Shown here in pieces: positions 21,583 to 43,430 of a stretch of DNA of 64,000 nucleotides (position 1 is the stretch's first letter; each line of letters starts with the position of its first letter). The position numbers and the translations under genes are program-made. The stretch is from the NCBI GenBank assembly GCA_016124745.1, contig WGNC01000010.1, forward strand, positions 62,001-126,000. The letters are read 5' to 3'. The notes under the pieces were generated by a model. That model made no database searches. It had not been told where the DNA came from and was given only the letters and a program-made list of their open reading frames with translations. Source of the DNA: Thiobacillus sp. (GTDB taxonomy: Bacteria; Pseudomonadota; Gammaproteobacteria; Burkholderiales; Thiobacillaceae).

Positions 21583-27494
<5,912 letters not shown>

Positions 27495-27781
27495 GGTTCC
27501 GTATGCTCAGGCAACAGCGGCCTGCCCGGGGGCAAGCCGCAAAAAATAAGCGAAAAGTGCGGCATTTTAATCCCTCGCGCCACATGCGGCAATGATTGCC
27601 CTGGTCAAAGCCTTGCCTCTGCTAGGGTTTCCGCACTTACCGGGGCTAGTGCTCGGAGCGGAAATGCCCCGATAAATTCCATGGTGCCGCTCAATCGAGC
27701 CTTCTCCCGTCTCGACGCGGCCAGCTGGCTCCGCCACTTGGCCCGTTCGTCATCCTTGAAGGCATGGGGTAGGCTTGTGTC

Positions 27782-28294
27782 ATGACCGATGCCTCCCTGC
27801 CGCCATGGCCGCCCAGCGACGTATTGTCCGATCCGCCAGAAGTCGACGTGGTGATCGAAGTGCCTCGCGGCAGCTTTCTGAAACGCGGGTCCACGGGCCA
27901 TATCGATTTCGTTTCGCCTTTTCCGTGTCCGTTCAATTACGGCGCGGTGCCGGACTATCTCGGACTCGAAGGCGACCTGCTGGACGCGCTGGTGCTGGGG
28001 CCGCGTTTGGCCCTGGGCACCCGCGTACGGGTCAAGGCATGGGGCGCGATCACCCTGACCGACCGCGGCATGGCGGACGACAAGCTCGTTTGCAGCGCCG
28101 AACCCCTGACCGCCGAGCAAAGCGCGTTCGTGCTGCGATTTTTCCGCTTCTACGCCAGATGCAAGGGCATGCTGAATTTCGTAAAGGGCCGCCCGGGGCG
28201 CAACGCGTGCGAGGGTTGGCGCAGCGCCCGCGAGGCCATTGCACGGGCCCGGCCGAGGCTGGAGTCATGGCAGGGTCCCCCTGTCGAATATTGA
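27782..28294 (+). CDS. Inorganic pyrophosphatase family protein
   Basis: A 170-residue protein like soluble family I pyrophosphatases, which split pyrophosphate to drive biosynthesis. Visible features are VVIEVPRGSFLKRGS (the catalytic Glu and Lys stretch), FPCPFNYGAVPDYLG, and WGAITLTDRGMADDKLV. The signature usually written DGDPxD reads EGDLLD here, so the first Asp is Glu and the Pro is Leu. Activity may therefore be altered. It is divergent from gltB and begins the short plus-strand pair with the EEP gene. Confidence 0.8.
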   Translation: MTDASLPPWPPSDVLSDPPEVDVVIEVPRGSFLKRGSTGHIDFVSPFPCPFNYGAVPDYLGLEGDLLDALVLGPRLALGTRVRVKAWGAITLTDRGMADDKLVCSAEPLTAEQSAFVLRFFRFYARCKGMLNFVKGRPGRNACEGWRSAREAIARARPRLESWQGPPVEY

Positions 28295-28358
28295 AGGCAA
28301 TTCCTTCGATCCGGATTTGCCTATTCTTTGACAAGGGACCACTCGAATTGGGAAAGCC

Positions 28359-29207
28359 ATGAAACTGTTGAGCTGGAACATCCAATGGGGACGCGGCATG
28401 GACGGGCGGGTCGACCTCGCGCGCATCCTCCGCACCATCCATGAAACAGGCGATTTCGACGTCCTCTGCCTGCAGGAGGTCGCGGTCAATTTCCCCGGCC
28501 TGCCCGGCAGCCACGGCGAGGACCAGGTTGCCGAACTGTCCGCCGGCCTGCCCGGCTACACCGTTATCTATGGTGCGGCAATCGACGTCCCGGATGGCCG
28601 CGGTGGCCGCAGCCTGTTCGGCAACGCCATTTTTTCCCGCCTGCCGGTCGGCCAGGTGTGGCGGCACCTGCTGCCGTGGCCGGCCGAGGCGGACGCGCCC
28701 AGCATGCAGCGGGTGCTGGTCGAAGCGGTGGTCATGGCCGATGTCGGCCCGGTGCGGGTCATGACGACCCACCTCGAATACTACTCGCAGCCCCAGCGCG
28801 AAGCCCAGATCAAAGCCATCCGCCGTCTGCATGCCGAGGCCTGCGCCATGTCCACCCGCGTGCCCTTGGTCGAGGAGCAGGGCGGTTCCTTCGAGGTGTT
28901 TCCGCGGCCCGCGCAGGCGCTGCTGTGCGGCGACATGAACTTCCCTGCCTCGGCCCCTGATCGGCTGCGACTGCTCGCACCGTTCAGCGATGGAACGCCG
29001 GGTTTTCACGATGCCTGGTCCGAACTGCATCCGGGCGAAACGCACGCCCCTACGGTCGGCATCCACAAGGTCGATTTCGTCGACCGCCCGGAGTGTTTCG
29101 ATTTCGTTTTCGTGACCGAGGGACTGGCGGGACGGCTCAAGTCGCATGGCATCAATGCCGCCACAGACGCTTCGGATCATCAACCGGTCTGGGTCGAGCT
29201 GGCTTGA
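28359..29207 (+). CDS. Endonuclease/exonuclease/phosphatase family hydrolase
   Basis: A 282-residue EEP-fold metal-dependent hydrolase. Conserved elements: LLSWNIQWG at the N-terminus (Asn), LCLQEV (metal-binding Glu), MTTHLEYYS, LLCGDMNFPASAPD (GDxN), and the closing SDHQPVWVEL (Asp-His). These keep the catalytic residues. The substrate could be a nucleic acid, a phospholipid or another phosphodiester and cannot be decided here. It lies 64 nt after the pyrophosphatase-like gene and ends at a clear hairpin. Confidence 0.88.
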   Translation: MKLLSWNIQWGRGMDGRVDLARILRTIHETGDFDVLCLQEVAVNFPGLPGSHGEDQVAELSAGLPGYTVIYGAAIDVPDGRGGRSLFGNAIFSRLPVGQVWRHLLPWPAEADAPSMQRVLVEAVVMADVGPVRVMTTHLEYYSQPQREAQIKAIRRLHAEACAMSTRVPLVEEQGGSFEVFPRPAQALLCGDMNFPASAPDRLRLLAPFSDGTPGFHDAWSELHPGETHAPTVGIHKVDFVDRPECFDFVFVTEGLAGRLKSHGINAATDASDHQPVWVELA

Positions 29208-29220
29208 GCCAGGATGAAAA

Positions 29221-29252
29221 CAAGGCGCCTCCGGTTTTTTGGAGGCGCCTTG
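29221..29252 (+). terminator. Strong hairpin terminator after the EEP gene
   Basis: CAAGGCGCCTCC and GGAGGCGCCTTG form a perfect 12-bp stem with an 8-nt loop rich in T. It lies between the convergent EEP gene and the defence-like island, so it may serve both strands. It also marks the left edge of the island. Confidence 0.8.
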
Positions 29253-29287
29253 CCGGATGTGATGGCGGTGCGTAGTTTACAACCGAA

Positions 29288-31696
29288 CTACGCGCTATTG
29301 TGGCCAGAGAGCAAGTCTGCGGCTTCCTGCGGATGTTCCACAACGCGATAACCCATTGCCCGATATCCACGCTGCCGCTTATCCCACATCCGCAGCAACG
29401 CCGGGTGTCCGGTGTCCACGAAATCAATGATTCGGACATCGGTCTTGGTGGTGTGCTCACGATGGAGGCGGCCGGCATATTGCTGCAGGGTTCCCTTCCA
29501 CGAAATCGGCATTGCCAGTACCAGCGTGTCGAGGGCGGGGTGGTCAAACCCCTCGCCGACTAACTTGCCGGTCGCGAGCAAAATCCGCGGCGCCTCGGGT
29601 GGTAGCCCGTCAAGTTCAGCGATCATTGCGGCCCGTTGCTTCTTCGACATCCGGCCGTGCAGCACGAAGGGCGCCGTCACATGCCCATCCAGGGCGGCGA
29701 GGATCGCATCGAGGTGCTCTGTGCGTTCGGTCAGAACAAGCACCTTGCGGCCTTGCTGGTAGGCACCCCGGACTTCGGCGGCAATGGTGTCGGTCCGTGT
29801 CTGATCGATTGCAAGATGCCGAAATACATCCTGAATACCCGCTTGGGAAGGCAAATCAATCTGCGTGAAAAGTGATCGTGGCTGCACGACCAGATCGTGT
29901 GGCGCGCTGGCCGGTTTGGCCGCCGTGTAACGGATCGGCCCGCACTGCATAAAGATTATTGGCTGCTGACCGTCACGACGAATCGGCGTGGCGGTCAGGC
30001 CAAGCACGTATTTGGCCTTGACCACTTTCAGAATCGCGTCGAATGAGGCAGCGCCAACATGGTGGCACTCGTCGATGATGACGTGGCCGTAGTTCTCGAC
30101 GACAGGATCGATCTCGCCCTGTCGTGACAACGACTGCATCACGGCGATATCGATCTTGCCGGTCGGCTTGGCTTTGCCGCCACCAATGGTACCGACCACG
30201 CCCTTGCCGACACCAAGGAAGGATTGCAGACGCTCCTGCCATTGCTTCAGCAATTCGGTACGATGCACCAGAACCAGCGTATTGACTCCCCTCCGGGTGA
30301 TCATCGCCGCCGCAGTCACCGTCTTGCCGAAGGCGGTCGGCGCGCACAGTACACCGGCGTCGTGGTGCAGCATCGCGGCCAGGGCTGCTTCCTGATCCAG
30401 GCGCAGCGTCCCGGTGAAGGCCACGTCGAGCGCCTCACCAGTAAAGCGCTCCTCGCGCAGATCGAAGCGGATGCCGTTGTTCCGCAGCAGGTCCTGCGCG
30501 GCGTCCAGGCAGCCGCGCGGCAACGCGATGTGGTTCGGGTAGTTTTCAGCGCAGCCGATCACCCGGGGCTTGTCCCAGACCGACATTCGCATCGCCTGCG
30601 CCTTGTAGAACTCGGGGTTCTGGAACGCTGCGAGGCGAATCAGCCGGTTGGCCAGCGGCTGCGGCAGCTGCGCCTTCTCAAAGTAAACGAGGTTGGCCAG
30701 CGTCACCGTGAGCGCCTCCGGCATCGGCACCGACAGCCTCCTGTGCATGGCAGCCTGCCGTGTCCACGGCGCAGCCAGATCCTCCTCGTCGATGAACGTC
30801 ACATCGAGTGGATGCGCATTGCCCGTGGCGCGCAGGATAGCGGGTTCGATATCGTGCGGCGGCATCGGCTGGATAGATGCCAGGAACACCCATTGGTCAG
30901 GATGCGGGCGCAATGCGTCATCGACGAAGATGCTGCAGCCGCTCTCCCTGGGCTTTTTCTGCAGCGGCAATGCAATCAGATTGCCAAAACCACCTTTGGG
31001 CATTATGTCCTGATTGGGGAACAGGCGGTCGTAGGACGCCAGCTTCAGTTGCCGGGTACGCGAACAGGTGTGGCTGATGATCGCTGTCCCCAGCCGCCGG
31101 GCATCGCGCGCCGACACCCGGCCAGAGAAAAACAGCCAGGCGTGCGCGCCGTTACCGGAGCGGGAAATCTCAAGGGCGACCGGCACCCCAAGCGCGTGAC
31201 ATGACTGGGCGAAGGCCAGCGCATCTTCTCTCCATTCGGCCTCGTCGAAATCGACAGCCAGGAAATAACAAGTGTCGTCGGCCAGGAGCGGATAGATGCC
31301 GACGGTGTGCTCGCCAGCCAGGTGGCCGTAAATGACCGTATCCGACAACGGGACCAGCAGACGGTTGGCGCAGTCTGAGCACTTGATGCGCGGCTTCTCG
31401 CAGACACCGGCACGCCACTCGTTGGCGCAGGCCGGGGCGTAACCCGACTTGCCGCTCGTTTTGCTTTCCCAGCGAACCGGATAGACATCGGTACGCCCCC
31501 TGAACAGGCGGCGAAACAGTGCCACTTTCTCTGCAGAAGAGAGCCGCGAGCTTTCGGGTACCGTTGCCGGCGCCGGCGATGGTTCAAGCGGCGGGCGCCA
31601 TTCAATCCCATGTGCCTCCAGCAGCGAAACCAGCCGGGCGATTTCGGCATGGAGCTTTTTCCGCTCCAATGCCGGATCGTCTCCCGGCAAAGTCAT
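29288..31696 (-). CDS. TOTE-type primase (AEP)-SF2 helicase fusion
   Basis: An 802-residue two-part protein. The N-terminal third matches the archaeo-eukaryotic primase domain known from TOTE conflict systems: a four-cysteine knuckle (C90, C99, C106, C109), catalytic D149-x-D151 in FLAVDFDEAEW, H185 in SGNGAHAWLFF, and GNLIALPLQ near 238-246. The C-terminal half is a RAD25/XPB-like helicase: Walker A APTAFGKT (452-459), DECHH (542-546), LGLTATP, and motif VI QYAGRLHREH. All key residues are intact. Its start overlaps the upstream 111-residue gene by ATGA. Probable role: anti-phage or anti-plasmid nucleic-acid processing (inference). Confidence 0.87.
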   Translation of the reverse strand: MTLPGDDPALERKKLHAEIARLVSLLEAHGIEWRPPLEPSPAPATVPESSRLSSAEKVALFRRLFRGRTDVYPVRWESKTSGKSGYAPACANEWRAGVCEKPRIKCSDCANRLLVPLSDTVIYGHLAGEHTVGIYPLLADDTCYFLAVDFDEAEWREDALAFAQSCHALGVPVALEISRSGNGAHAWLFFSGRVSARDARRLGTAIISHTCSRTRQLKLASYDRLFPNQDIMPKGGFGNLIALPLQKKPRESGCSIFVDDALRPHPDQWVFLASIQPMPPHDIEPAILRATGNAHPLDVTFIDEEDLAAPWTRQAAMHRRLSVPMPEALTVTLANLVYFEKAQLPQPLANRLIRLAAFQNPEFYKAQAMRMSVWDKPRVIGCAENYPNHIALPRGCLDAAQDLLRNNGIRFDLREERFTGEALDVAFTGTLRLDQEAALAAMLHHDAGVLCAPTAFGKTVTAAAMITRRGVNTLVLVHRTELLKQWQERLQSFLGVGKGVVGTIGGGKAKPTGKIDIAVMQSLSRQGEIDPVVENYGHVIIDECHHVGAASFDAILKVVKAKYVLGLTATPIRRDGQQPIIFMQCGPIRYTAAKPASAPHDLVVQPRSLFTQIDLPSQAGIQDVFRHLAIDQTRTDTIAAEVRGAYQQGRKVLVLTERTEHLDAILAALDGHVTAPFVLHGRMSKKQRAAMIAELDGLPPEAPRILLATGKLVGEGFDHPALDTLVLAMPISWKGTLQQYAGRLHREHTTKTDVRIIDFVDTGHPALLRMWDKRQRGYRAMGYRVVEHPQEAADLLSGHNSA

Positions 31697-32028
31697 GGCC
31701 GCCGTTCCGCCTTGAGTGCGGAGTCATCCCCGAGGTGAATGAAAATGCGCCCTTCGACCAGGTCGTCGTTGACTGCCAGCCACCCGCGCCCATTCACGGG
31801 GTTGTTGTCGTCAAATCCCGACCAGGAAAATTCAAAGCGCACCGCGCCGTTGCGGGTTTCCACCCGTCCATCGAGCTCACCCTGCACCATGCCGAACTGG
31901 AATTCGCCGGTCAAATCCTTGCGGACAATGATGTGTGCCGGCACCTCCATATCGAAATAGTCGGCATCCCAGGTTTCCATTTCCGTGATGCGCCAGTGGC
32001 CGATGAAGGTAGGTTTCGTCCGTCTCAT
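31693..32028 (-). CDS. Conserved protein of unknown function (111 aa)
   Basis: A 111-residue soluble protein with a mostly beta look. Marked motifs are GHWRITEMETWDADYFDMEV, FQFGMVQGELDGR, VRFEFSWSGFDDNNP and IFIHLGDDSALKAE. I recognise it as a widespread conserved hypothetical with no assigned activity. Both its ends are 4-nt ATGA overlaps, with the 183-residue gene upstream and the primase-helicase downstream, so it is produced with them and may be a partner or regulator. Cys and signal sequences are lacking. Confidence 0.8.
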   Translation of the reverse strand: MRRTKPTFIGHWRITEMETWDADYFDMEVPAHIIVRKDLTGEFQFGMVQGELDGRVETRNGAVRFEFSWSGFDDNNPVNGRGWLAVNDDLVEGRIFIHLGDDSALKAERRP

Positions 32029-32576
32029 TCCGCCACAATCAAACCTGCGCGATACCAGGATTCAATGAATTCACCGGCCACCCAGCCGCTGATATTCTGG
32101 TCAGAGGCTCTCACTTGATCCAGACGATCAAGAAATGGAGCGCGCTGCGCCTCGGGCAGCAACATCACGGTTTTCAATGCCTGCTCAAACATCCGCACCA
32201 CGGCATCGTAATAGCCCTCGTCATCCAGTCCAACATCGTTGGCGAACCCAATGGCGCGCTCGCAGTAAAACACCATCAATTCGGCCAGCCCCTCAGTTTG
32301 GCCAATGGCTTTCCTGTAATCGGCAATGGCTTTTTTCGCCTTGGCGACGGAAGTGTCCTGGTTCTTGATTATGTCCGGCCACAGCCAGCGGTCGATGGTG
32401 GCCTTGTAGGGTATGAGCGGGTCGTCTCCCAGCCCGAAACGGGCGTGCAGGAAGGCCTGGTTGTCCCCACTGGCTGCGTACAGGTCGTGCACCAGGTCGA
32501 GCAGGCCGGCGCGGTCGAAGTCGGTCAGCCTGGTTTTGAGGTCGCTCCATGTGGGCGTGGTTTTCTTGGTCGCCAT
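32025..32576 (-). CDS. Conserved helical protein of unknown function (183 aa)
   Basis: A 183-residue, mostly alpha-helical, acidic protein: TWSDLKTRLTDFDRAGLLDL, LYAASGDNQAFLHARFGLGD, a central AKAKKAIADYRKA segment, and AELMVFYCERAIGFANDVGL. The pattern resembles the broad DUF6155-like group of conserved hypotheticals, but I am not certain of the name. It begins 32 nt after the Res gene and overlaps the 111-residue gene by ATGA. It could be a regulator, immunity or structural partner of the primase-helicase; none of this is shown by sequence. Confidence 0.78.
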   Translation of the reverse strand: MATKKTTPTWSDLKTRLTDFDRAGLLDLVHDLYAASGDNQAFLHARFGLGDDPLIPYKATIDRWLWPDIIKNQDTSVAKAKKAIADYRKAIGQTEGLAELMVFYCERAIGFANDVGLDDEGYYDAVVRMFEQALKTVMLLPEAQRAPFLDRLDQVRASDQNISGWVAGEFIESWYRAGLIVAE

Positions 32577-32608
32577 CCTTTACTTGTCTGTCTTGCCGGG
32601 CTCAGCCC

Positions 32609-35308
32609 TCACAGCAGGCCCTCGATCAATTCCCAGTGCTTGTCCTTCACCATCACGAAGCGACAGCGTCCCCCGGAAAGCCCGGCCCACAAGCCCCCGA
32701 TCAGGCGGTCATCCTCGGACGCCGCCCAGCGGTCGCCGCCCTTGTATTCGACAGCGAGGATCGCGCCCGGTTGGTCGCCAGAGGCAGGCAACTGGCACAG
32801 GAAATCCGGGTAGAAACGGCCATCAGCTTTTTGCAGGAAGAAGGAACTGCCTTCCCGCCTGACCAGGTTGCGCACCCAGAACTGGAGTCGTCCTTTTTGT
32901 GCCCGCATGTCGAGCCAGCAGGCGCATTCGAATTCCTCCTTGCTGTCGAAGTCGCCGATGCGGCCATAGAAGTGCTTGCGGAAATCGAACTGGCCAAAGC
33001 GTCCGTCGTAGTCGCGGCTGGGCGCGTAGGCCTGGGCCTGAAACTCGAACGCGTCGTGATCGGTGACGGCCACGCGTGAGGCCGCATCGTCGCCGAACAG
33101 CGCCTGCTGAAATGCCTTGCCGACCGCCTGCTTGCGCAAGCCGCGAATGCGCGCTTCCAGCAGATTGCGGATCAGGAATTTCTGCAGGTTGGCGCGGGCC
33201 AGCGTGAATCCCTCGCGCCGCAACAGCTCGGTCAGCCAGGCCGCGACGAAAGCCTGCTTGCTGGCGTGCGTCAGCGATGGTTCCGGCAGGTTGCGGCACA
33301 GCCAGGTCGCCAATCGGACTTCGTCCCAATGTTCGGGCTGGTAAACCAGCCCCAGGTCGCGCTGCAGTTCCGGCAGGAAGCGCGACACCATGTGGCCGCC
33401 TTCATCGATGTCGATCTCGCCGCCTTCGGATACCTTGAGTCCTGCACCCAGCGCAGTTACGTCATCAGCCGATGGCGTCGCATCGTAGGGCGACACGTCC
33501 CACGGATATTCCAGCACCTCCGGGTCATCGAACAAGGCAAGCTCGCCCTGCACGCGCAATGCCAGTTGCGGCACACGGAAGCGCTCGCCCAGTTCGGCGG
33601 GCGTCTGGAAGAACTCGATGGCCGTGGTGCGGCTGACCTCGGCCGCCTCGACGATGGCGGCCATAGCGGTTTCCGATGTGACCGAGGCCTTGAGCACTTC
33701 TGCTTCGTCCTCGGTCAGCGGCGTGCTGATGGTCAGGGTGTTGAGCTTGCCGTCCCAGCTCACCTTGTCGCGCACCGGTTTCGGCACGCTCCTGAGGTCC
33801 GGCTTTTCCGACAGGGTGATCGCCACCGGCCGAACGACCACGCGCCCGGCATGGCCCTCCAGGTCAAACCGCGCCTGCTCTTGCCTGGCCGCCGTCACGA
33901 ACTCGCTCACCTCGCGCCGCTCGAAACCGGCGCCGGCCACCAAGCGGTCGCGCAGCGCGCTCGCGGTTTCCGCGAAATTGCGCGACACCACGAAGGCATA
34001 GGACTGATTCAGCGCTTTGGCTTGCCGGTGACTGGCGCCCGGCTGCCGCAGCACGCGACCAAGCAGTTGCTCCACCGCCGTGGCCGAATGCAGCGAAGCC
34101 ATGCTGACCAGGATGTAGGCAAACGGGCAGTCCCAGCCCTCGGCCAGCGCCTTCTGCGTGATGACGAATTTCACCGGGCAGGCCGGGTCGGCAATGCCCA
34201 GCTTGTAGTCCGTCTCGATCTGCTCCAGCCCCTTTTCCTCGCCGGTGGCGACGACAATCTCGCTGGCCGGGATGCCGTGGTTGGTGATCAGCTCGGTGCG
34301 CACGCGCTCGAAATCCAGCGTCTCCACCCCGGCACGGCGCGGCTCCGACTGGATCAGCACCAGCGGCCGCAAGTAGGGGCTGCCGGCGCGGCGCTCTTCG
34401 TCGGCGAGCTTGTGCAGGGCGTCGCGCCGGCCGATGGCGTCGGCCAGGCACTGCTGCCAGTTCGGCTCGGTTTCCAGCACCACCGGCAGCTTGATCATTT
34501 CCTCCGCCTTCAGCTCGGCCGCCGACACGCTGTGCAGCACGTTCGACGGCGTGCGCTCCAGGTCGGGCGTCGCGGTCAGTTCCATCACCCCGCTGGGGCG
34601 GAAGCGCGCCAGCATGTCGAAGGCGAGTTCGGTGCGGCTGTTGTGCGCCTCGTCGACGACCACGAAAGGCCGGCGCAGCCGCAGCACGTTGGCCAGCGAA
34701 TAGGGAACGGTGCGCTCCGCGCCGTCGCCCTCGGTCAGCAGCTCGTCGCGCTGGCTGGGCGAGAGGTTGTCGAAGTGGTGCATCAAAGCGCCGCTCGACT
34801 GATACACCTTGCGGCATTCCTCGTCTTCCACCTGGAACGCCTGCCGCGTCGCCACGATGATCGTGGTCGAGGTATCCAGCGTGGCGCGGGTCACGCTCTT
34901 GGTCTCGTCCAGGTCCATCACGGTGATGGGCCCGGCCTCGCGCAGCGCCGTGTGGTAAGGGTGGTTGCGATCCTTCAACGCCCGCAGCGTTTGTTCGCGG
35001 ATGGGCTTCGAGGGCACCAGCCACAAAATGACGCTGTGCTCGCAGCGCAGCAGATGCGTGTTGACCAGCGCTACGCTCTTGGCCGCCAGCCAGGTCTTGC
35101 CACCGCCGGTCGGCACGCGCAGACAGAAATAGGGCATGTCGGCCGGAAAGCCCGGCAGCGGGTTGTACGACAAGCCGCGGCCCCACAGCCGTTCGGTGGT
35201 CGCGGTGAAGGCAATCGAGGGCGAAGGCAGCTCGTGGCAGGCCTGGAAATAGGCCTCCACGCTTTCGAGCACCTGCTGCTGATAGATTTTTGGGGCAAAA
35301 CTGCTCAT
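32609..35308 (-). CDS. Type III restriction enzyme Res-like helicase-nuclease
   Basis: An 899-residue protein. The N-terminal helicase core has Walker A PTGGGKT (66-72), DEAH (219-222), ELTATP (243-248) and the VEQLLGRVLRQPGA motif. The C-terminus ends in a PD-(D/E)xK nuclease: P834-D835 in RFYPDFLC, then E854-x-K856 in AVEYKGG. This is the layout of type III Res subunits and close DEAD/DEAH relatives, which cut DNA after translocation when paired with Mod. The Mod-like gene is in the same operon two genes upstream. It overlaps the small 73-residue gene by ATGA. All motifs look intact. Confidence 0.9.
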   Translation of the reverse strand: MSSFAPKIYQQQVLESVEAYFQACHELPSPSIAFTATTERLWGRGLSYNPLPGFPADMPYFCLRVPTGGGKTWLAAKSVALVNTHLLRCEHSVILWLVPSKPIREQTLRALKDRNHPYHTALREAGPITVMDLDETKSVTRATLDTSTTIIVATRQAFQVEDEECRKVYQSSGALMHHFDNLSPSQRDELLTEGDGAERTVPYSLANVLRLRRPFVVVDEAHNSRTELAFDMLARFRPSGVMELTATPDLERTPSNVLHSVSAAELKAEEMIKLPVVLETEPNWQQCLADAIGRRDALHKLADEERRAGSPYLRPLVLIQSEPRRAGVETLDFERVRTELITNHGIPASEIVVATGEEKGLEQIETDYKLGIADPACPVKFVITQKALAEGWDCPFAYILVSMASLHSATAVEQLLGRVLRQPGASHRQAKALNQSYAFVVSRNFAETASALRDRLVAGAGFERREVSEFVTAARQEQARFDLEGHAGRVVVRPVAITLSEKPDLRSVPKPVRDKVSWDGKLNTLTISTPLTEDEAEVLKASVTSETAMAAIVEAAEVSRTTAIEFFQTPAELGERFRVPQLALRVQGELALFDDPEVLEYPWDVSPYDATPSADDVTALGAGLKVSEGGEIDIDEGGHMVSRFLPELQRDLGLVYQPEHWDEVRLATWLCRNLPEPSLTHASKQAFVAAWLTELLRREGFTLARANLQKFLIRNLLEARIRGLRKQAVGKAFQQALFGDDAASRVAVTDHDAFEFQAQAYAPSRDYDGRFGQFDFRKHFYGRIGDFDSKEEFECACWLDMRAQKGRLQFWVRNLVRREGSSFFLQKADGRFYPDFLCQLPASGDQPGAILAVEYKGGDRWAASEDDRLIGGLWAGLSGGRCRFVMVKDKHWELIEGLL

Positions 35309-35526
35309 GCCTTATCGCCATACGGCGCGTTAGCTTCCTGAACGCTGAGGACTTCAAGCTCCGGCGCATCGGGTTGGAAGTGCTCGACGATCCCGTCCCG
35401 GCTCACCACAATGGCTGTCCCCGTCTTGCGCGCCAGCTCCCGGGCACGTACCGCTGCGCGCTGCATTGCCGCAACAGAAAGCCGTAAATCGGCATCAAGT
35501 GCCTTTTCGATGGGCTGCTTGTTCAT
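35305..35526 (-). CDS. Small protein, putative antitoxin of the zeta-like toxin
   Basis: A 73-residue helical protein (IEKALDADLRLSVAAMQRAA, RARELARKTGTAIVVSRDG, then an acidic tail). It sits between the zeta-like toxin and Res. Its ATG overlaps the toxin's ancestral stop by ATGA and its own stop overlaps the Res start by ATGA. Position and size suggest an antitoxin, and I recall similar small genes beside chromosomal zeta-family kinases. No DNA-binding motif is evident. Confidence 0.7.
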   Translation of the reverse strand: MNKQPIEKALDADLRLSVAAMQRAAVRARELARKTGTAIVVSRDGIVEHFQPDAPELEVLSVQEANAPYGDKA

Positions 35527-36049
35527 GGTTTTTCGCTCCAGTCCAGCAACACCGGTTGCGCGCCGGCATTGTCATAAAGTGTCCAGGCATCCACCTTGGG
35601 CGCATACAGCGTTTCGAGATTGACCAATCCCGCCGCAAAAAACGGCGGCGGATAACATTCTCGGGAATGTTGTGCCCACCCTGTTTGACACGTTGCTCGA
35701 CCCGCGCAATGGCCTCTTCCGCGCTGGCGAGTTGCAGGAATATCAGTTTGACGCGATAGCCCGCCGCCTGCCACTGGTCGATCAGGCGCAGATAGCCGCG
35801 CCCGGACAAGGTGGTTTCGAAGCCAAAACTCGTGCGCGTGGCGAAATGGCGCGCCAGCTCCTGCAACATCAAGCGGCCAGCGTGAATCGCCGCCGTTTCC
35901 GGCGCAAACGGGGCAATGCCGGCAGCAATCAGATCGGCATTTACAAACACGGGGCAGCCCGCCTCATTGGGCAGAAACTCACGGGCAAACGTGGTCTTAC
36001 CCGCACCGTTCGGTCCGGCAATCATGATGACGCGCGGCTGGGTTTCCAT
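35523..36049 (-). pseudogene. Zeta toxin family kinase, frameshifted near its 3' end
   Basis: A zeta-type P-loop kinase, a family that phosphorylates UDP-sugars or small molecules. Residues 11-20 give the Walker A AGPNGAGKTT; NADLIAAGIAPFAPE and FGFETTLSG follow. At the T6 tract (A6 on the plus strand, 35637-35642) the frame slips. Family-like sequence resumes in another frame as AAGLVNLETLYAPKVDAWTL, then YDNAGAQPVLL, ending at 35523 in an ATGA overlap with the small gene. The straight reading runs into that gene and ends at 35495 with an Arg-rich tail. The start has GGAGG upstream. It could be a null mutation, phase variation, slippage or a sequencing error. Confidence 0.8.
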
Positions 36050-36051
36050 GC

Positions 36052-37404
36052 TTACACCTCCAGCGCGTAAGGCGTCTGCTTGAAGACGATGCCCTCGCGC
36101 GCGGCGCGGGCGCCCATGCGGTTGGCGGCAGCGTAGATCACCTTCGGCCCGGCGAATTTCGGCAGCACCTCGAATACCGGCCCGGTCAGCACGTTGCCGC
36201 CCGCGACTGACTTGTCTTTCAGGATGCCGTTGTAGAGCAGGTAGATCGCGCGGCCCTCAAACACGCCGAGCAAGGGCGACAGTATTTCCCCCTCTCCCTC
36301 TGGGAGAGGGCCGGGGAGAGGGCGCGCGGTGCCGGTTTCGGCAAACCAGACGAATTCGGCAAGCTGCGCGAATGTCACGTCGCTGCGGATCTGGCCGTCG
36401 GCATCGAACAGCGGTTCGGCCGACAGGCGGCAGAACTGGAAGCCGCCGCCCAGGCCTTCGACGGCGTTGCCCCTGGCGTTGGTGTAGCCGCTGGCGACGC
36501 GCTTCACCCGTTCGGCGGTCACGGTGCGGGCGATGGTGCCGTCCATCTCGACCAGGATGAAACGGCGGTTGCCGCCGTCTTCGGCATTCTGTTTAAGCAC
36601 TGCATGACCCGTGGTGCCTGAGCCGGCGAAGCTGTCGAGGATCAATTCGCCGGGCTTGGTTGCGATCTGGATGACGCGCTGGATCAGGCGTGTCGGCTTG
36701 GGTGTATCGAACGCGGTCTGCGTTCCGAACAAGCTTTGGACTTCCTTGCGTGCCTCATCGGTATGGCCGACCTCTTCGTGTGGCCACCACGTCCATGGAA
36801 CGAAGCCCTCAACTTCTGATAGATAGCGAATCACATTGGGCTGCGAATCACCATTTTTTCCAAAGTAAATGCGTCCTTCAGCCTTGAGTTTGAGGAACTC
36901 GCTTTCGATGGTTGACCAGCAACGCCCTTCAGGTGGTTTCAGCTTCTTCCCCGTCGGTGTTTCGATCTCATACATTTGATTGGGACGGAAGCCCTGCGCA
37001 GTCATCGGGATACCGCGCCACCGTCCGTTCGGATCATTGTTCGGGTTCTTGTAAACAGCCGCCTGTTTCTCATCGATGGGCACGCGATTACGAACCCCCT
37101 GAAACAAGACCGGATTCTTGGCGTATACGACAAGGTACTCGTGCACATCGCCGATCGCGCCCCGGTTTTCGCGCGAGTAGCGCTTCTGCCAGACGTTGCT
37201 GGCAATGTAATTGGACGCCCCGAAAATCTCATCCATCAACAGCCGCAGCGTCGCCACTTCGTTGTCGTCGATGGACACGAAGATCGCCCCGTCCTCACGC
37301 AGAAACTGCTTCAGCAGCACCAGCCGCGGATACATCATCGACAGCCAGCGGTCGTGCCGGTCCAGCGTCTCGCCTTCCTTGCCGATCCAGTTCAGTGTGG
37401 GCAT
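36052..37404 (-). CDS. Type III DNA methyltransferase (Mod), catalytic region deleted
   Basis: A 450-residue beta-class adenine methyltransferase relative. SAM-binding motif I is intact (LILDSFAGSGTTGHAVL), and the SMMYPRLVLLKQFLREDGAI and FVSIDDNEVATLRLLMDEIF blocks are typical of Mod. However, the N-terminus runs MPTLNWIGKE directly into GETLDRHDRW. In full-length Mod proteins about 80-100 residues lie between these points, including the catalytic DPPY motif, which is absent here. It is therefore probably inactive. An in-frame deletion between similar GGCAAGGAA strings is the likely cause. The ribosome binding site is weak. It precedes the toxin gene by 2 nt. Confidence 0.85.
   Translation of the reverse strand: MPTLNWIGKEGETLDRHDRWLSMMYPRLVLLKQFLREDGAIFVSIDDNEVATLRLLMDEIFGASNYIASNVWQKRYSRENRGAIGDVHEYLVVYAKNPVLFQGVRNRVPIDEKQAAVYKNPNNDPNGRWRGIPMTAQGFRPNQMYEIETPTGKKLKPPEGRCWSTIESEFLKLKAEGRIYFGKNGDSQPNVIRYLSEVEGFVPWTWWPHEEVGHTDEARKEVQSLFGTQTAFDTPKPTRLIQRVIQIATKPGELILDSFAGSGTTGHAVLKQNAEDGGNRRFILVEMDGTIARTVTAERVKRVASGYTNARGNAVEGLGGGFQFCRLSAEPLFDADGQIRSDVTFAQLAEFVWFAETGTARPLPGPLPEGEGEILSPLLGVFEGRAIYLLYNGILKDKSVAGGNVLTGPVFEVLPKFAGPKVIYAAANRMGARAAREGIVFKQTPYALEV
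36288..36323. repeat. REP-like palindromic repeat inside the Mod gene
   Basis: CCCTCTCCCT and GGGAGAGGGC arms followed by GGGGAGAGGG, a C/T-G/A-rich palindromic form common as an interspersed repeat in Proteobacteria. Here it lies within the coding sequence and is translated in frame as RPLPGPLPEGEGE, near residue 370 of Mod. Likely a past repeat insertion that kept the frame. Confidence 0.6.
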
Positions 37405-37558
37405 GAGGATTCAATGTCCGTGCTTGTCATGGCTATCGCCCTGGTCCGGTCGAAACGGGGCGATATAAGTCTCTGATTTTTTGTGGAAGCCTGGGCGTAT
37501 CGCCCAAGGTCTATTGCCCGGGTGGTTCCGATAACGTGCTTCATGTCCGATAGCCGTC

Positions 37559-39196
37559 TCATTGAGCCAACCGGTAGCGCCGCCATCGCCTGTCGCCTTC
37601 GAAACGCACCTCGCCTTTGTCGATGAGTCCGTCCAGTGCACGCTTGACCTGTTTGGGGTGGATTTCGCCGCCGATGCGCTGGCGGATTTCGCCGATGGCA
37701 GATTGCGGATAGCGGCCCAGATCTTCCAGGATCAGGGCGGCGAGTCGGTGCGGTTCGATCCGCTTGAGGGTGGTGCCACTGGCAAAGTTCAGGTTCCGCA
37801 GCAGGCCTGGGTCGACGAAGTAGCGGGTGGCCTGGGTGCGGCCACTGCTCTGAACGATGCGCCAGTCCAGCAGCCGGGACAGCCAGGGCTGCAATGCCTC
37901 CACTGCGGGCAGTTCCAGGGCCACGGTCAACTCGCGTGCGGTGAGCGCATCGTGTTGTGCCAGCAGCCCGATGACGATGCGTTCGCGCTGGGTCAAAGGG
38001 TAGGTTTGATCGGCCTTGGCGATGAAATCGATAACCTCGGGCTTGAGGATGCGCCGCCGCACAGTTACCTGCACGCGGTCGTGCGTCTCGATCAACTCGG
38101 GCGCCGGCCGTCCCTGTGAAAGCAGCACTTCGTAGATCTTGTCGAAGCCGCTGCCTTCGCGTTCCATCAGTTTGAGGTCGTGGAACAGGCGGGCCATGTG
38201 ATCGTTACGCCGAACGGTGGTGTGCAGAATATTGCCGGGCGTGACGCCCAGCGGCAGCAAGCCAGGGTTGACCACCTCCAGGCGATCCGGATACAGGTTC
38301 AGAAAAATGTCGCCCCGCTGCGTGTAAGGACGATGCACCAGCGCATTGACTAGCAGTTCGCGTACGACGATCTCGTCGTAGGCAGGTACGTTCTGGCGAT
38401 AGAGGCCGTCCGGCAATTCGTAACGCTCGCGAAAGTCCGGTATTTCCTGCCATATTGCCTCGATGAGTTCCATCGGGTTCAAGTTGAAGTCGTCCCAGGT
38501 GAGCTTGTTGACCTTCTGGCCAAGTTCGTCGTACTTGATGAACTGGATGACCGGCGCCGTACCCAGATTGGCGCGATCTTCGCGCTTGCCTATGCACAGC
38601 ACGCCAAGATGGGTGAGCCATTCGCCTTGCGCCAGCAGGTAATGGTCAAGCAGTTCCTCCTCGGTTTTCTCCTTGACCGAGTCCTTGACGCGGTCAGAGG
38701 CGCGAACGGCAGCCACCAGGACAGCCTTCCTCTGCTCATCAAGACGGGTTCGTGGAACATTCAGCGAGGTTAGTGTTTCCCACGGCAAGGCCGTGCGCTC
38801 GGCAGCAAGCCGCATGACATCGTCGCCGAGAACTGGCTTGCTTTCGTCCGAGACGCGCAGAAAGTAGCGGCCATCCGTGGTGGACGCTACTGACATTGCG
38901 CGCGGGATGCCCAATTCGAGGAACTCGCCGCCGTTATCGGCACGGCGAATGTCGGGCAGGGAGGCGACATTAACAGTGCGTTCGCTGATTTTTCGCCGCA
39001 GAATGTCGGCTAGCGCGGGATCGATACGTTGGTCCGGTGCCGGGGTGTCAGCATTGTCCTCAATCCCGATGAGCAAACGGCCGCCTTGGGCATTGGCAAA
39101 AGCGACGCAATCTTTGGCGAGTGCATCCCAGTCGGGGTTGCGGCCCGTGAGGACACGCAGGGATTTTTTGTCGACCAGTTGCCCTTCTTGGCTCAT
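37559..39196 (-). CDS. AlbA_2 (Schlafen-like) domain ATP-binding protein
   Basis: A 545-residue protein. The N-terminal AlbA_2 domain (residues ~1-130) shows DCVAFANAQGGRLLIGIEDN. A HATPase_c_4-type region follows around 260-380 (IVVRELLVNALVHRPYTQRG, LEVVNPGLLPLGVTPGNIL, RLFHDLKLMEREGSGFDKIY). Winged-helix segments end the protein. Such proteins are often named RecG-like or Slf-type regulators and are frequent in defence islands. It is first in the minus-strand block, 155 nt ahead of Mod, and may regulate or act with it. The molecular activity is unknown. Confidence 0.87.
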   Translation of the reverse strand: MSQEGQLVDKKSLRVLTGRNPDWDALAKDCVAFANAQGGRLLIGIEDNADTPAPDQRIDPALADILRRKISERTVNVASLPDIRRADNGGEFLELGIPRAMSVASTTDGRYFLRVSDESKPVLGDDVMRLAAERTALPWETLTSLNVPRTRLDEQRKAVLVAAVRASDRVKDSVKEKTEEELLDHYLLAQGEWLTHLGVLCIGKREDRANLGTAPVIQFIKYDELGQKVNKLTWDDFNLNPMELIEAIWQEIPDFRERYELPDGLYRQNVPAYDEIVVRELLVNALVHRPYTQRGDIFLNLYPDRLEVVNPGLLPLGVTPGNILHTTVRRNDHMARLFHDLKLMEREGSGFDKIYEVLLSQGRPAPELIETHDRVQVTVRRRILKPEVIDFIAKADQTYPLTQRERIVIGLLAQHDALTARELTVALELPAVEALQPWLSRLLDWRIVQSSGRTQATRYFVDPGLLRNLNFASGTTLKRIEPHRLAALILEDLGRYPQSAIGEIRQRIGGEIHPKQVKRALDGLIDKGEVRFEGDRRWRRYRLAQ

Positions 39197-39265
39197 GCCG
39201 CGTACAGGCCTCTGTCCAGTGGGAAGGTGCGTCGGGTTTGACCCGACATTAAGTTATCGTGAATT

Positions 39266-39341
<76 letters not shown>

Positions 39342-39360
39342 AGTGCGGCGGATTATAGCT

Positions 39361-39780
39361 TCAGCGGCTCCGTGCGGGAAGCGCGGCGAGGGATTGGGGG
39401 AGGTTGGGCAGGACGCGGGCGGCGAGCCAGCCGAACAGGACGCCGCCGCTGTTGGCGAGCGCGTCCAGAATGTCTGGCTGGCGCTCGGGAGTGAGGCCTT
39501 GCAGCCCTTCGATGGCAATGCCGTATAGGACCACTGCAATGGCGAGTTTCCAGCGCCGTTGGGTTACCAGCTGCGCCCACCAGAACATCAGAAGTGCGTA
39601 GCCGAACAGGTGCACGAGTTTGTCGGCCTGGCTGTCAGCGTTGCCCAGTGCGGGTGGCATCAGCGATACCACCAGGGTGACGATGACGCCGAGCCAGCCG
39701 CACGCGAGCCACACGCGGGTGATTCGGGTGGCGCGCCGGTTGCGGGTTGCCCCAATCCGGCGTCGGAGCGTTGCGGTCAT
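39361..39780 (-). CDS. VanZ-like membrane protein
   Basis: A 139-residue integral membrane protein with about four helices ([64 protein letters not shown]). [12 protein letters not shown] and EGLQG are typical of the VanZ family, named for a teicoplanin-resistance protein but mostly of unknown role. I start at 39780, where ATG overlaps the lgt stop (ATGA). It is the last gene of the lgt unit, just before the tRNA. Confidence 0.87.
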
Positions 39781-40559
39781 GCCTGACGCTTCGCCCAGCG
39801 CAGCATCAGCACGCCGGCGACAATCATCGGCAGCGACAGCCATTGCCCCATGGAAAGACCCAGACCGAGCAGGCCGAGGAAACTGTCGGGTTCGCGGGCG
39901 AACTCAGCGAGGAAGCGCAAGCTGCCGTAGCCGATGAGGAAGACGCCGGAGACAGCGCCGACCGGACGCGGTTTGCTCGAATAGAGCCACAGGATCACGA
40001 ACAGAAGCAGGCCCTCGCCGGCCAGCTGGTAGAGCTGTGAAGGGTGGCGCCCAATATTGTCGCCCGCCTGCGGGAAGATCATGCCCCAGGGCAGGTTGGT
40101 GGCACGCCCCCACAGTTCGCCGTTGATGAAGTTGCCGAGCCGCCCGGCGGCCAGTCCCAGCGGGACCAGTGGCGCGATGAAGTCGGTGACGGCGAGCCAG
40201 CGCAGCTGATGGCGGCGCGCGAACAGCGCCATTGCGATGATCACGCCTAGAAATCCCCCGTGAAAGCTCATGCCGCCTTCCCACACCCTGAGAATGTCGA
40301 GCGGGTGGGCCAGGAAATCTGCCGGCTTGTAGAAAAGCACATAGCCCAGCCGCCCGCCGAGGATGACGCCGAGCACTCCATAGAACAGGACGTCGTCGAG
40401 CATCTTCGCGTTCCAACCCGACCATGGCCGGTGCGTGATGCACCAGCGCCCGAGCAGGATGACCTGCATGAAGGCGACCAGGTACATGAGGCCGTACCAG
40501 TGGATGGCGACAGGCCCAAGCTGCAGGGCGACGGGGTCGAATTGCGGATGTACGAGCAT
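39777..40559 (-). CDS. lgt: Prolipoprotein diacylglyceryl transferase
   Basis: A 260-residue inner-membrane enzyme that moves diacylglyceryl from phosphatidylglycerol to the lipobox cysteine of prolipoproteins. It has seven predicted helices and the signature [14 protein letters not shown]. Other features are the N-terminal [21 protein letters not shown] and [12 protein letters not shown], which carry essential His and Arg residues. Full length. Translationally coupled to the VanZ gene; divergent from ilvD. Confidence 0.97.
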
Positions 40560-40652
40560 GAATGAAAAGGTCAGGATTCAGGGGGTGGGATTCAGTGTTA
40601 CCAAAGCGCGAGTAAAATGGACGGCTGATTATAGATTGCCTGAGTGACCATC

Positions 40653-43430
40653 ATGCCTGACTACCGTTCCTGGACAACCACCCGTGGCCGCAACATGGCT
40701 GGAGCGCGCGCGCTGTGGCGCGCCACCGGCATGAAGGACGGCGATTTCAACAAGCCCATCATCGCGATCGCCAACTCGTTCACCCAGTTCGTGCCGGGCC
40801 ACGTGCACCTGAAGGACATGGGCCAGCTGGTGGCGCGCGAGATCGAGGCGGCGGGCGGCGTGGCCAAGGAATTCAACACCATCGCGGTAGACGACGGCAT
40901 CGCCATGGGCCACGGCGGCATGCTGTATTCGCTGCCGAGCCGCGACCTTATTGCCGACTCGGTCGAATACATGGTCAACGCGCATTGCGCCGATGCGCTG
41001 GTGTGCATTTCCAACTGCGACAAGATCACGCCCGGCATGCTGAATGCCGCGTTGCGGCTGAACATCCCGACGGTGTTCGTCTCCGGCGGCCCGATGGAAG
41101 CGGGCAAGGTGGTGTGGGACAAGCAGACCATCAAGCTCGACCTGGTCGACGCCATGGTGTCTGCAGCCGATGCCAGGTTCAGCAACGAAAAGGTCGACCA
41201 GCTCGAACGCTCGGCCTGCCCGACCTGCGGTTCCTGCTCGGGCATGTTCACCGCCAACTCGATGAACTGCCTGACCGAGGCGCTCGGCCTCTCGCTGCCC
41301 GGCAACGGTTCGTTGCTGGCGACCCATGCCGACCGCCGGAACCTGTTCCTGGCCGCCGGCCGGCTGATCGTGAAAAACGCGCGTCGTTATTACGAAGATG
41401 GTGACACCCGCGTGCTGCCGCGCGCGATCGCCAGCTTCGACGCATTTGAGAACGCCATCGCGCTCGACATCGCCATGGGCGGATCGACCAATACCGTGCT
41501 GCACCTGCTGGCAGCCGCGCATGAGGCCGGCGTCGACTTCACCATGGCCGACATCGATCGCATGAGCCGCCGCGTACCGCACCTGTCGAAAGTGGCGCCG
41601 TCGATCCAGACCTACCACATGGAAGATGTGCATCGCGCCGGCGGCGTGATGGCGATCCTCGGCGAACTGGAGCGCGGTGGCCTGGTGCATCGCGAGCTGC
41701 CGACCGTGCTGTGCGATTCGCTGGGCGAACAAATCGACACCTACGATATCCGCCGCACCATGAACAGGGACGTGAAGGACTATTTTCGTGCTGCGCCCGG
41801 CGGCGTACCGACACAGACCGCGTTCTCGCAGGACCGTCGTTTTGCCAGTCTCGACGATGACCGCGTGAATGGCTGCATCCACGACATCGAGCATGCCTAC
41901 TCGAAGGATGGCGGCCTGGCGGTGCTGTACGGCAACCTCGCCATGGACGGCTGCATCGTCAAGACCGCCGGTGTCGACGAGAGCATATGGAAATTCTCGG
42001 GACCTGCGCGCGTGTTCGAATCGCAGGAAGCGGCGGTGGAGGCCATCCTCGGCGACCGGATCGTCGCCGGCGACGTGGTGGTGATTCGTTACGAAGGCCC
42101 GCGCGGCGGCCCTGGCATGCAGGAAATGCTGTATCCGACCTCGTACCTGAAATCCAAAGGCCTCGGCAAGGCCTGCGCGCTGATCACCGATGGCCGCTTC
42201 TCTGGCGGCACCTCGGGGCTGTCCATCGGTCATGCCAGCCCGGAAGCGGCTGAAGGCGGCACCATCGGTCTGGTGCAGGAAGGCGACATGATCGACATCG
42301 ACATTCCGAACCGCACGATCAATGTGCGGCTGGCCGATGCCGAACTGGAACGTCGCCGCAACGAGATGGATGCGAAAGGCGCGCAGGCATGGAAGCCGGT
42401 CAACCGTGAACGCACGGTGTCCGCCGCCTTGCGTGCCTATGCGGCGATGGCGACGTCGGCCGCCTTCGGCGCGGTGCGCGATGTCAGCCTGGTGGAGCAT
42501 CCGAGCGAAGCGCAGGCGCACGCCGATCCGCTGGCGCGCTTCACCATCCCCGGCCAGTTGAGCTTCCGCGTCGGTTCAGGCGGCCTGACCTATGCCGATA
42601 TCGACAATCACGGCGGTCGCGCGACGATCTGCCTGCAGGGCGCGCATGTGGTGAGCTACCGGCCCAAGGCGCAGCAGGTGCCGCTGGTGTGGGTGTCCGA
42701 TGCGGCCAAGTTCGCAGCGGGCAAGTCCATCCGTGGTGGCGCCCCGGTGTGCTGGCCGTGGTTCGGCCCGCACGAGAGCGAGGCTTCGTTCCCCGCACAC
42801 GGGTTTGCGCGAACGGTTCCATGGACGGTAGTCGGCAGCCGCAAGCGCAACGATTCCAAAACCGAGATCACCCTGCAGTTGGCCGACAGCGACCAGACCC
42901 GCGCGCAGTGGCCCCACCCCACCCGGCTGACGCTCACGGTAGTGGTGAGCGACAAGCTGGACATGCATCTGGCGACCACCAACCTGGACGACAAGCCGGT
43001 GCAGATTGGCGAAGCGCTGCACACCTATCTGCAGATCAGCGATGTGGGCGCGGTGAGGATCACCGGGCTGGAAGGCAGCAGCTTCCATGACAAGGTCGAC
43101 AATTTCGCAAAGAAGAAGCAGTCCGGCGCGATCGCGCTGAAAGGCGAGGTCGACCGCGTCTACGTCAATACCCCGGCCGACTGCGTGATCGAGGATGCGG
43201 GCCTGAAGCGCCGAATCCGCATCGCCAAGACCGGTTCATTGTCCACGATCGTCTGGACGCCGTGGACCGAGAAGGCCGAGAAGATGGGCGATATGGGTAA
43301 AGGAAAATCGGGTGAGGGCTGGCGCGAAATGGTCTGCGTCGAGTCGGCCAACGCGATGGACAACGTCGTCACCGTCGCGCCGGGCGAGACGCACACGATG
43401 ACCGTTGCCTACAGCGTCGAGACGCTCTGA
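40653..43430 (+). CDS. ilvD: Dihydroxy-acid dehydratase fused to a hexose-6-phosphate mutarotase-like domain
   Basis: A 925-residue protein. Residues 1 to ~615 are a complete IlvD (valine/isoleucine synthesis, Fe-S dehydratase) of the E. coli type: [70 protein letters not shown], ending [20 protein letters not shown]. Without a stop the frame continues through [15 protein letters not shown] into about 300 residues like YeaD mutarotases: [55 protein letters not shown]. Neither half looks damaged. I start at ATG 40653 (MPDYRS); a GTG 9 nt upstream is less likely. The fusion is unusual. Confidence 0.93.

Follow-up and report, generated by a model that had tools for sequence, protein, structure and literature searches.

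Within a stretch of 64,000 nucleotides from Thiobacillus sp. (assembly GCA_016124745.1, contig WGNC01000010.1, positions 62,001 to 126,000; hereafter the window), a TOTE-type primase-helicase gene ends a run of co-directional genes and is preceded by genes for two small proteins, p183 and p111 (these names, like c1 below, are labels coined in the present analysis). We propose, with middling confidence, that the run is a mobile conflict operon at a tRNA-Ala hotspot, in which TOTE has become attached behind a type III restriction-modification (R-M) system with a Zeta-like kinase pair. Its conflict function would most likely be anti-invader, that is, one of defence. p183 is a recurrent partner of TOTE, and the linkage is strong where both genes occur; p111 is an optional rather than a fixed member.

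By its domains and motifs the 802-residue product is a TOTE-type archaeo-eukaryotic primase (AEP) joined to a superfamily 2 (SF2) helicase. It matches the Pfam family AEP-TOTE (PF22548) with E 2.3e-99 and 332 bits against a curated cut-off of 27, and also ResIII, Helicase_C and the PADLOC model PrimPol 'CAS associated' (E 4.9e-113). The primase residues, four-Cys knuckle and XPB-like helicase that the first-pass annotation had recognized are intact: D149, D151, H185, the GKT at 457-459, the DECHH at 542-546 and the four cysteines of the knuckle (90, 99, 106, 109) are invariant in 39/39 aligned rows, which represent 30 distinct loci. D149/D151 and H185 align with the DID and H of the solved chains 7nqd and 7nqf, which we take to be CRISPR-associated primase-polymerases (their entries say TPR_REGION protein). 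The AEP core, with its DxD and H, is thus shared with those enzymes, whereas the window TOTE also has an SF2 helicase in the same chain. Apart from shared helicase or primase domains, the eight island genes give no conspicuous match to a cas family, and no 20-mer is repeated three times within 26000-42000. A role of TOTE in biological conflict is suggested by genomic context; the name comes solely from the Pfam family, and an open-literature search found no paper using the term.

The partners were followed through two evenly drawn samples, of the class (274 genomes; TOTE in 26, p183 in 10, p111 in 5) and of the phylum (329 genomes; TOTE in 16, 15 of them above cut-off, p183 in 10, p111 in 12), which pooled gave 18 distinct p183 genomes and 16 distinct p111 genomes. 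Relatives of the two small proteins in the class sample were 28-72% identical to them. TOTE lies directly downstream of p183 in six of the 18 p183 genomes (G000, G122, G136, G340, G354, G484). Eight sampled genomes hold both genes, and in six of them p183 is immediately upstream; in the other two (G218, G227) the genes fall on different contigs. Over all the stretches inspected, p183 is directly upstream of TOTE in the window, with p111 between, and without p111 in L050, L051, L176-L178, three plasmids (L228-L230) and a same-genus relative (L217); L051 also repeats the order Mod-Res-p183-TOTE, and in L176-L178 a Zeta-like gene precedes p183-TOTE with no Mod or Res in the stretch. The protein appears to be a divergent member of DUF6155, a family to which 17/19 p183 homologues have matches of E 0.5 or lower (the best being 2.9e-21); the match of the window copy is weak (E 0.012, 15.9 bits against the Pfam cut-off of 27). 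Five CRISPR-like direct repeats with a spacing of 72-73 nt lie about 640 nt downstream of one p183-TOTE pair (L177:5815-6148), and L091 has a type I Wadjet system with all of JetABCD (L091:8342-16318) between p183 and TOTE.

The AlphaFold2 (AF2) model of p111 consists of strands and one 4-residue helix only, and a Pfam scan of 35 homologues gave no consistent match. In the CBASS (cyclic-oligonucleotide-based anti-phage signalling system) effector Cap15, membrane helices precede the barrel and a partner gene encodes a cyclase; p111 was compared with Cap15 (7n34) and rejected as such an effector on its model and on the lack of any cyclase family among the eight island genes. Among the 16 sampled p111 genomes TOTE adjoins p111 in one, the window's own. 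The two genes are about 348 kb apart in G136 and on different contigs in G264 and G384, where adjacency is not fully excluded; TOTE was not found in the other 12. A p111-seeded scan of named genomes yielded relatives at 40-65% identity in 53 loci, in 16 of which TOTE follows p111 on the same strand at a distance of up to 1.5 kb (20 have it anywhere in the stretch). p183 adjoins p111 in 13/53 of these loci and c1 in 16/53, while in 23/53 none of p183, c1 and TOTE does. The c1 family (383 aa, starting MSEYQYYEF) directly follows p111 in those 16 loci (e.g. L131:8347-9495, L094:8325-9473); Pfam scans of two members and a PADLOC scan of one gave no match. In seven loci c1, p111 and TOTE occur together, c1 replacing p183, with c1 a fragment in L122. 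One genome, G278 (L185, L186), holds three p111 copies, two of them equal in score, with maturase-like genes near one as judged by eye.

It had been claimed from the window alone that p183, p111 and TOTE form a three-gene module of fixed partners. The three open reading frames are indeed present and intact, all on the minus strand, with ATGA overlaps of 4 nt at both junctions (32025-32028 and 31693-31696). The p183-p111 overlap recurs in L082, L084 and L085 and the p111-TOTE overlap in L083, L084, L085 and L124, and the three proteins are probably co-translated. Across genomes, all three genes were found together in 8/53 p111-seeded loci, but in two orders: p183-p111-TOTE in L082-L085 (in L083 with other genes, including RlaP, between p183 and p111) and p111-p183-TOTE in L092, L096, L097 and L100. 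Of these trios, four (L085, L096, L097, L100) have a full-length TOTE; in the remaining four it is cut or truncated. What stands of the module is the recurring p183-TOTE linkage; a fixed partnership is not supported, given the p183-TOTE pairs listed above that lack p111, and the co-directional run is longer than the trio. The first-pass annotation had also named, as what would speak against it, homologues of the small proteins lying mostly elsewhere with no linkage to primase-helicases. By count they do lie mostly elsewhere, p111 clearly and p183 as well, because 15/16 and 12/18 sampled genomes, respectively, have no adjoining TOTE. Linkage nevertheless recurs, p183 standing upstream in 6/8 genomes that hold both, and the data support a recurrence far beyond chance.

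What precedes TOTE varies. At 24 loci of the two samples with a near-full-length TOTE, we scored the co-directional gene lying up to about 300 nt upstream of the open frame. It was p183 in six (with p111 intervening in the window), a toxin-antitoxin-like gene in four (AbiEii, itself preceded by AbiEi, in L060; ParE in L062 and L191; and HTH_3 in L068, a call below the Pfam cut-off), AlbA in two (L071, L073), and in one each a YgjP peptidase (L188), an RNA ligase (L061), DUF1173 (L192) and RPA (L070); the remaining eight had no such gene or only a short unidentified frame. For most of the sampled TOTE genes the upstream neighbour is something other than p183 or p111. In a tree of 30 TOTE rows, p183, p111 or c1 accompanies 12/22 rows of one clade (branch 100/100) and 0/8 rows outside it; seeding with p111 or the hotspot contributed 7 of those 12 rows and inflates the ratio within the clade, but affects the restriction to the clade less. 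The slot upstream of TOTE thus appears exchangeable among conflict modules, a pattern counted without a control set. In comparison with other PF22548 systems, with which it shares the AEP domain far above cut-off, the SF2 helicase fusion and the catalytic residues, the window copy and part of its clade stand out by close upstream p183/p111 or p111/c1 genes. The core enzyme belongs to a known family; what would be new are its partner families and the apparently exchangeable slot. For this novelty the literature gives weak evidence, because our open-literature search, which returned no text on p183, p111 or c1 partners or on such a slot by name, left most subscription papers outside its reach.

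The whole run reads AlbA/Schlafen, Mod, Zeta-like kinase, 73-aa protein, Res, p183, p111 and TOTE, with gaps of at most 32 nt from Mod through TOTE and of 154 nt between AlbA and Mod (Table 1). Mod and Res lie in one operon and match PADLOC type III models, as in a type III R-M system; here, in contrast to such systems, the Zeta-like kinase and 73-aa genes separate Mod from Res, and p183-p111-TOTE follows Res. The run is inserted between an Exo_endo_phos gene and a tRNA-Ala(CGC) gene, an interval of 10058 bp in the window (29207-39266). A search of 41 genomes for Exo_endo_phos relatives gave matches in 18, some of them only weak. We compared the site in 13 same-genus stretches (L197, L216-L227), in eight of which the Exo_endo_phos gene is followed by tRNA-Ala(CGC) and vanZ/lgt at intervals of 58, 829, 2141, 6805, 8085, 9715, 10180 and 12300 bp; the other five had no tRNA-Ala(CGC) in the stretch, two of them being short contig ends. 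The shortest intervals are those of L197 (58 bp), which is close to an empty site, and L225 (829 bp), and those of 2.1-12.3 kb belong to L216-L220 and L222. At this site L217 carries TOTE (81%), p183, Res (85%), AlbA and an interrupted Mod, without p111; a gene with an in-frame stop, presumably RhuM-like from its likeness to other proteins, lies between its Res and p183 (L217:3837-5437). L222 carries Mod-Res, and L218 an AlbA gene in two pieces with a short TOTE remnant.

Table 1. Genes of the inserted run and its borders in the window (aa, amino acids; pLDDT, predicted local distance difference test)
Feature	Position	Strand	Remarks
Exo_endo_phos gene, one border, host backbone	28359..29207	+	same bracket in relatives
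TOTE-type AEP primase, four-Cys knuckle, XPB-like SF2 helicase	29288..31696	-	802 aa; last gene of run
p111, predicted 8-strand antiparallel beta-barrel	31693..32028	-	111 aa; AF2 pLDDT 91.1; no Pfam family; optional member
p183, predicted all-helical, probable divergent DUF6155	32025..32576	-	183 aa; AF2 pLDDT 85.5; recurrent TOTE partner
Type III restriction enzyme, Res-like	32609..35308	-	899 aa; PADLOC REase_III E 1.3e-120
73-aa protein between Zeta and Res	35305..35526	-	no family matched; overlaps Res by 4 nt and Zeta by 32 nt (coordinates)
Zeta-toxin-like P-loop kinase	35495..36049	-	184 aa; Zeta_toxin PF06414 E 3.7e-11
Type III methyltransferase, Mod-like	36052..37404	-	450 aa; N6_N4_Mtase; PADLOC MTase_III E 5.2e-146
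Schlafen/AlbA_2 + HATPase_c_4 protein	37559..39196	-	545 aa; first gene of insertion
tRNA-Ala(CGC), other border of variable site	39266..39341	-	same bracket in relatives

Of the alternatives to a conflict operon, the one that survives best, although we judge it rather unlikely, is that one hotspot has collected the type III R-M system, the putative Zeta pair, p183-p111 and TOTE as independent cargo without joint function, their ATGA overlaps reflecting only compact packing. Such independence is suggested by p183 occurring without p111 or TOTE (L046, L049, L179-L182), by the 23 p111 loci that adjoin none of the other families, together with the 106 plasmid records that match p111, and by genes interposed within the arrangement: Wadjet between p183 and TOTE (L091), the RhuM-like gene between Res and p183 (L217) and RlaP between p183 and p111 (L083). 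Against it, p183 stands directly before TOTE in 6/8 genomes with both, on three plasmids and in a same-genus relative, and the type of overlap is conserved within lineages.

Plasmids bear on a second alternative. TOTE matched 96 plasmid records at E < 1e-80 (in 89 the match spans 80% or more of its length), p183 matched eight and p111 matched 106; of these we inspected eight, five and four, respectively. In at least three of the eight p183 plasmids (Azotobacter, Massilia and Cupriavidus oxalaticus) TOTE comes right after p183 and p111 is missing, and the stretches from C. necator and Azonexus are without TOTE. In the incomplete gene tables of the four p111 plasmids, no helicase is annotated up to 4 kb from p111. 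Among the five inspected TOTE plasmids without p183, those of E. albertii and Pantoea carry a recombinase gene immediately ahead of TOTE, the Aeromonas copy is flanked by an NYN gene on its upstream side and by type I restriction genes on its downstream side, and the two E. coli copies follow other plasmid genes. The E. albertii TOTE (72.8% identity) lies between the recombinase gene and a Tn3 transposase gene (L236:5373-11310), as Tn3-family cargo would, whereas no transposase or integrase family occurs among the eight genes of the window insertion. TOTE might accordingly be an upkeep gene of plasmids or transposons, serving replication, repair or stable inheritance and often found with toxin-antitoxin genes; the abundance of plasmid matches, the recombinase on two of eight inspected plasmids with the Tn3 transposase following on one, and the ParE, AbiEi/AbiEii and HTH antitoxin-like neighbours in L062, L191, L060 and L068 all fit. 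We nonetheless consider upkeep unlikely: the window TOTE is on a 212-kb contig, in a tRNA hotspot with a restriction system and with nearly bare sites in L197 and L225, and R-M or AlbA genes accompany TOTE in L051, L071, L073, L217 and the Aeromonas plasmid. That p183-p111 is instead a two-gene toxin-antitoxin-like unit acquired in front of TOTE is very improbable, since the pair does occur without TOTE in L048, L055 and L086 with short overlaps (p111 being split across two frames in L055), but each gene also occurs without the other, the order is reversed in L092, L096, L097 and L100, and family searches placed neither among known toxins or antitoxins.

Several observations weigh against the mobile conflict operon that we prefer. 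The majority of sampled p111 and p183 genomes lack an adjoining TOTE, as counted above, and the predicted p183 fold resembled generic helical repeats only. Recurring neighbours need not act together because defence islands mix genes, and our neighbour counts were made without a control set of other island genes. TOTE had 21 phage matches, 0/21 covering 80% of the query, and the 15 listed were to the helicase part only; this plasmid-rich, phage-poor pattern suits mobile-element conflict or plasmid upkeep as well as phage defence. As to mobility, family scans found no integrase or transposase among the eight genes, and a search for exact repeats found none of at least 11 nt common to the borders (29150-29400 and 39150-39420).

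If the run is such an operon, Mod/Res would distinguish self from foreign DNA and then cut or translocate on it, as expected from their family. The XPB-like helicase and AEP primase-polymerase of TOTE, whose catalytic residues are in place, could act on the resulting unwound or forked DNA and make or extend strands there, thereby blocking replication of the invader. p183, linked to this TOTE clade, would be its dedicated partner, produced in a coupled manner and likely binding TOTE to control or target it. p111, a predicted barrel of ligand-binding type, may act as a regulator or sensor that is not always present and that accompanies either p183 or c1, which stands in for p183, and different conflict modules would be swapped in the slot upstream of TOTE. 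A broader version, which we regard as doubtful, makes TOTE a common effector core on exchangeable upstream control modules, with p183, p111 and c1 as dedicated adaptors of one TOTE clade. In its boldest form the p111 barrel would gate TOTE in response to a small ligand that it senses, perhaps a nucleotide that the AEP primase makes or releases.

TOTE matches 96 plasmid records and 26/274 class genomes, and we found no text in the open literature on how it works; a recurrent small partner such as p183 offers a concrete handle on what it does. An exchangeable slot, if true, would explain how one core enzyme comes to stand behind restriction, toxin-antitoxin and abortive-infection genes, and gating of TOTE by p111, if true, would amount to a novel signalling pathway in bacterial conflict.

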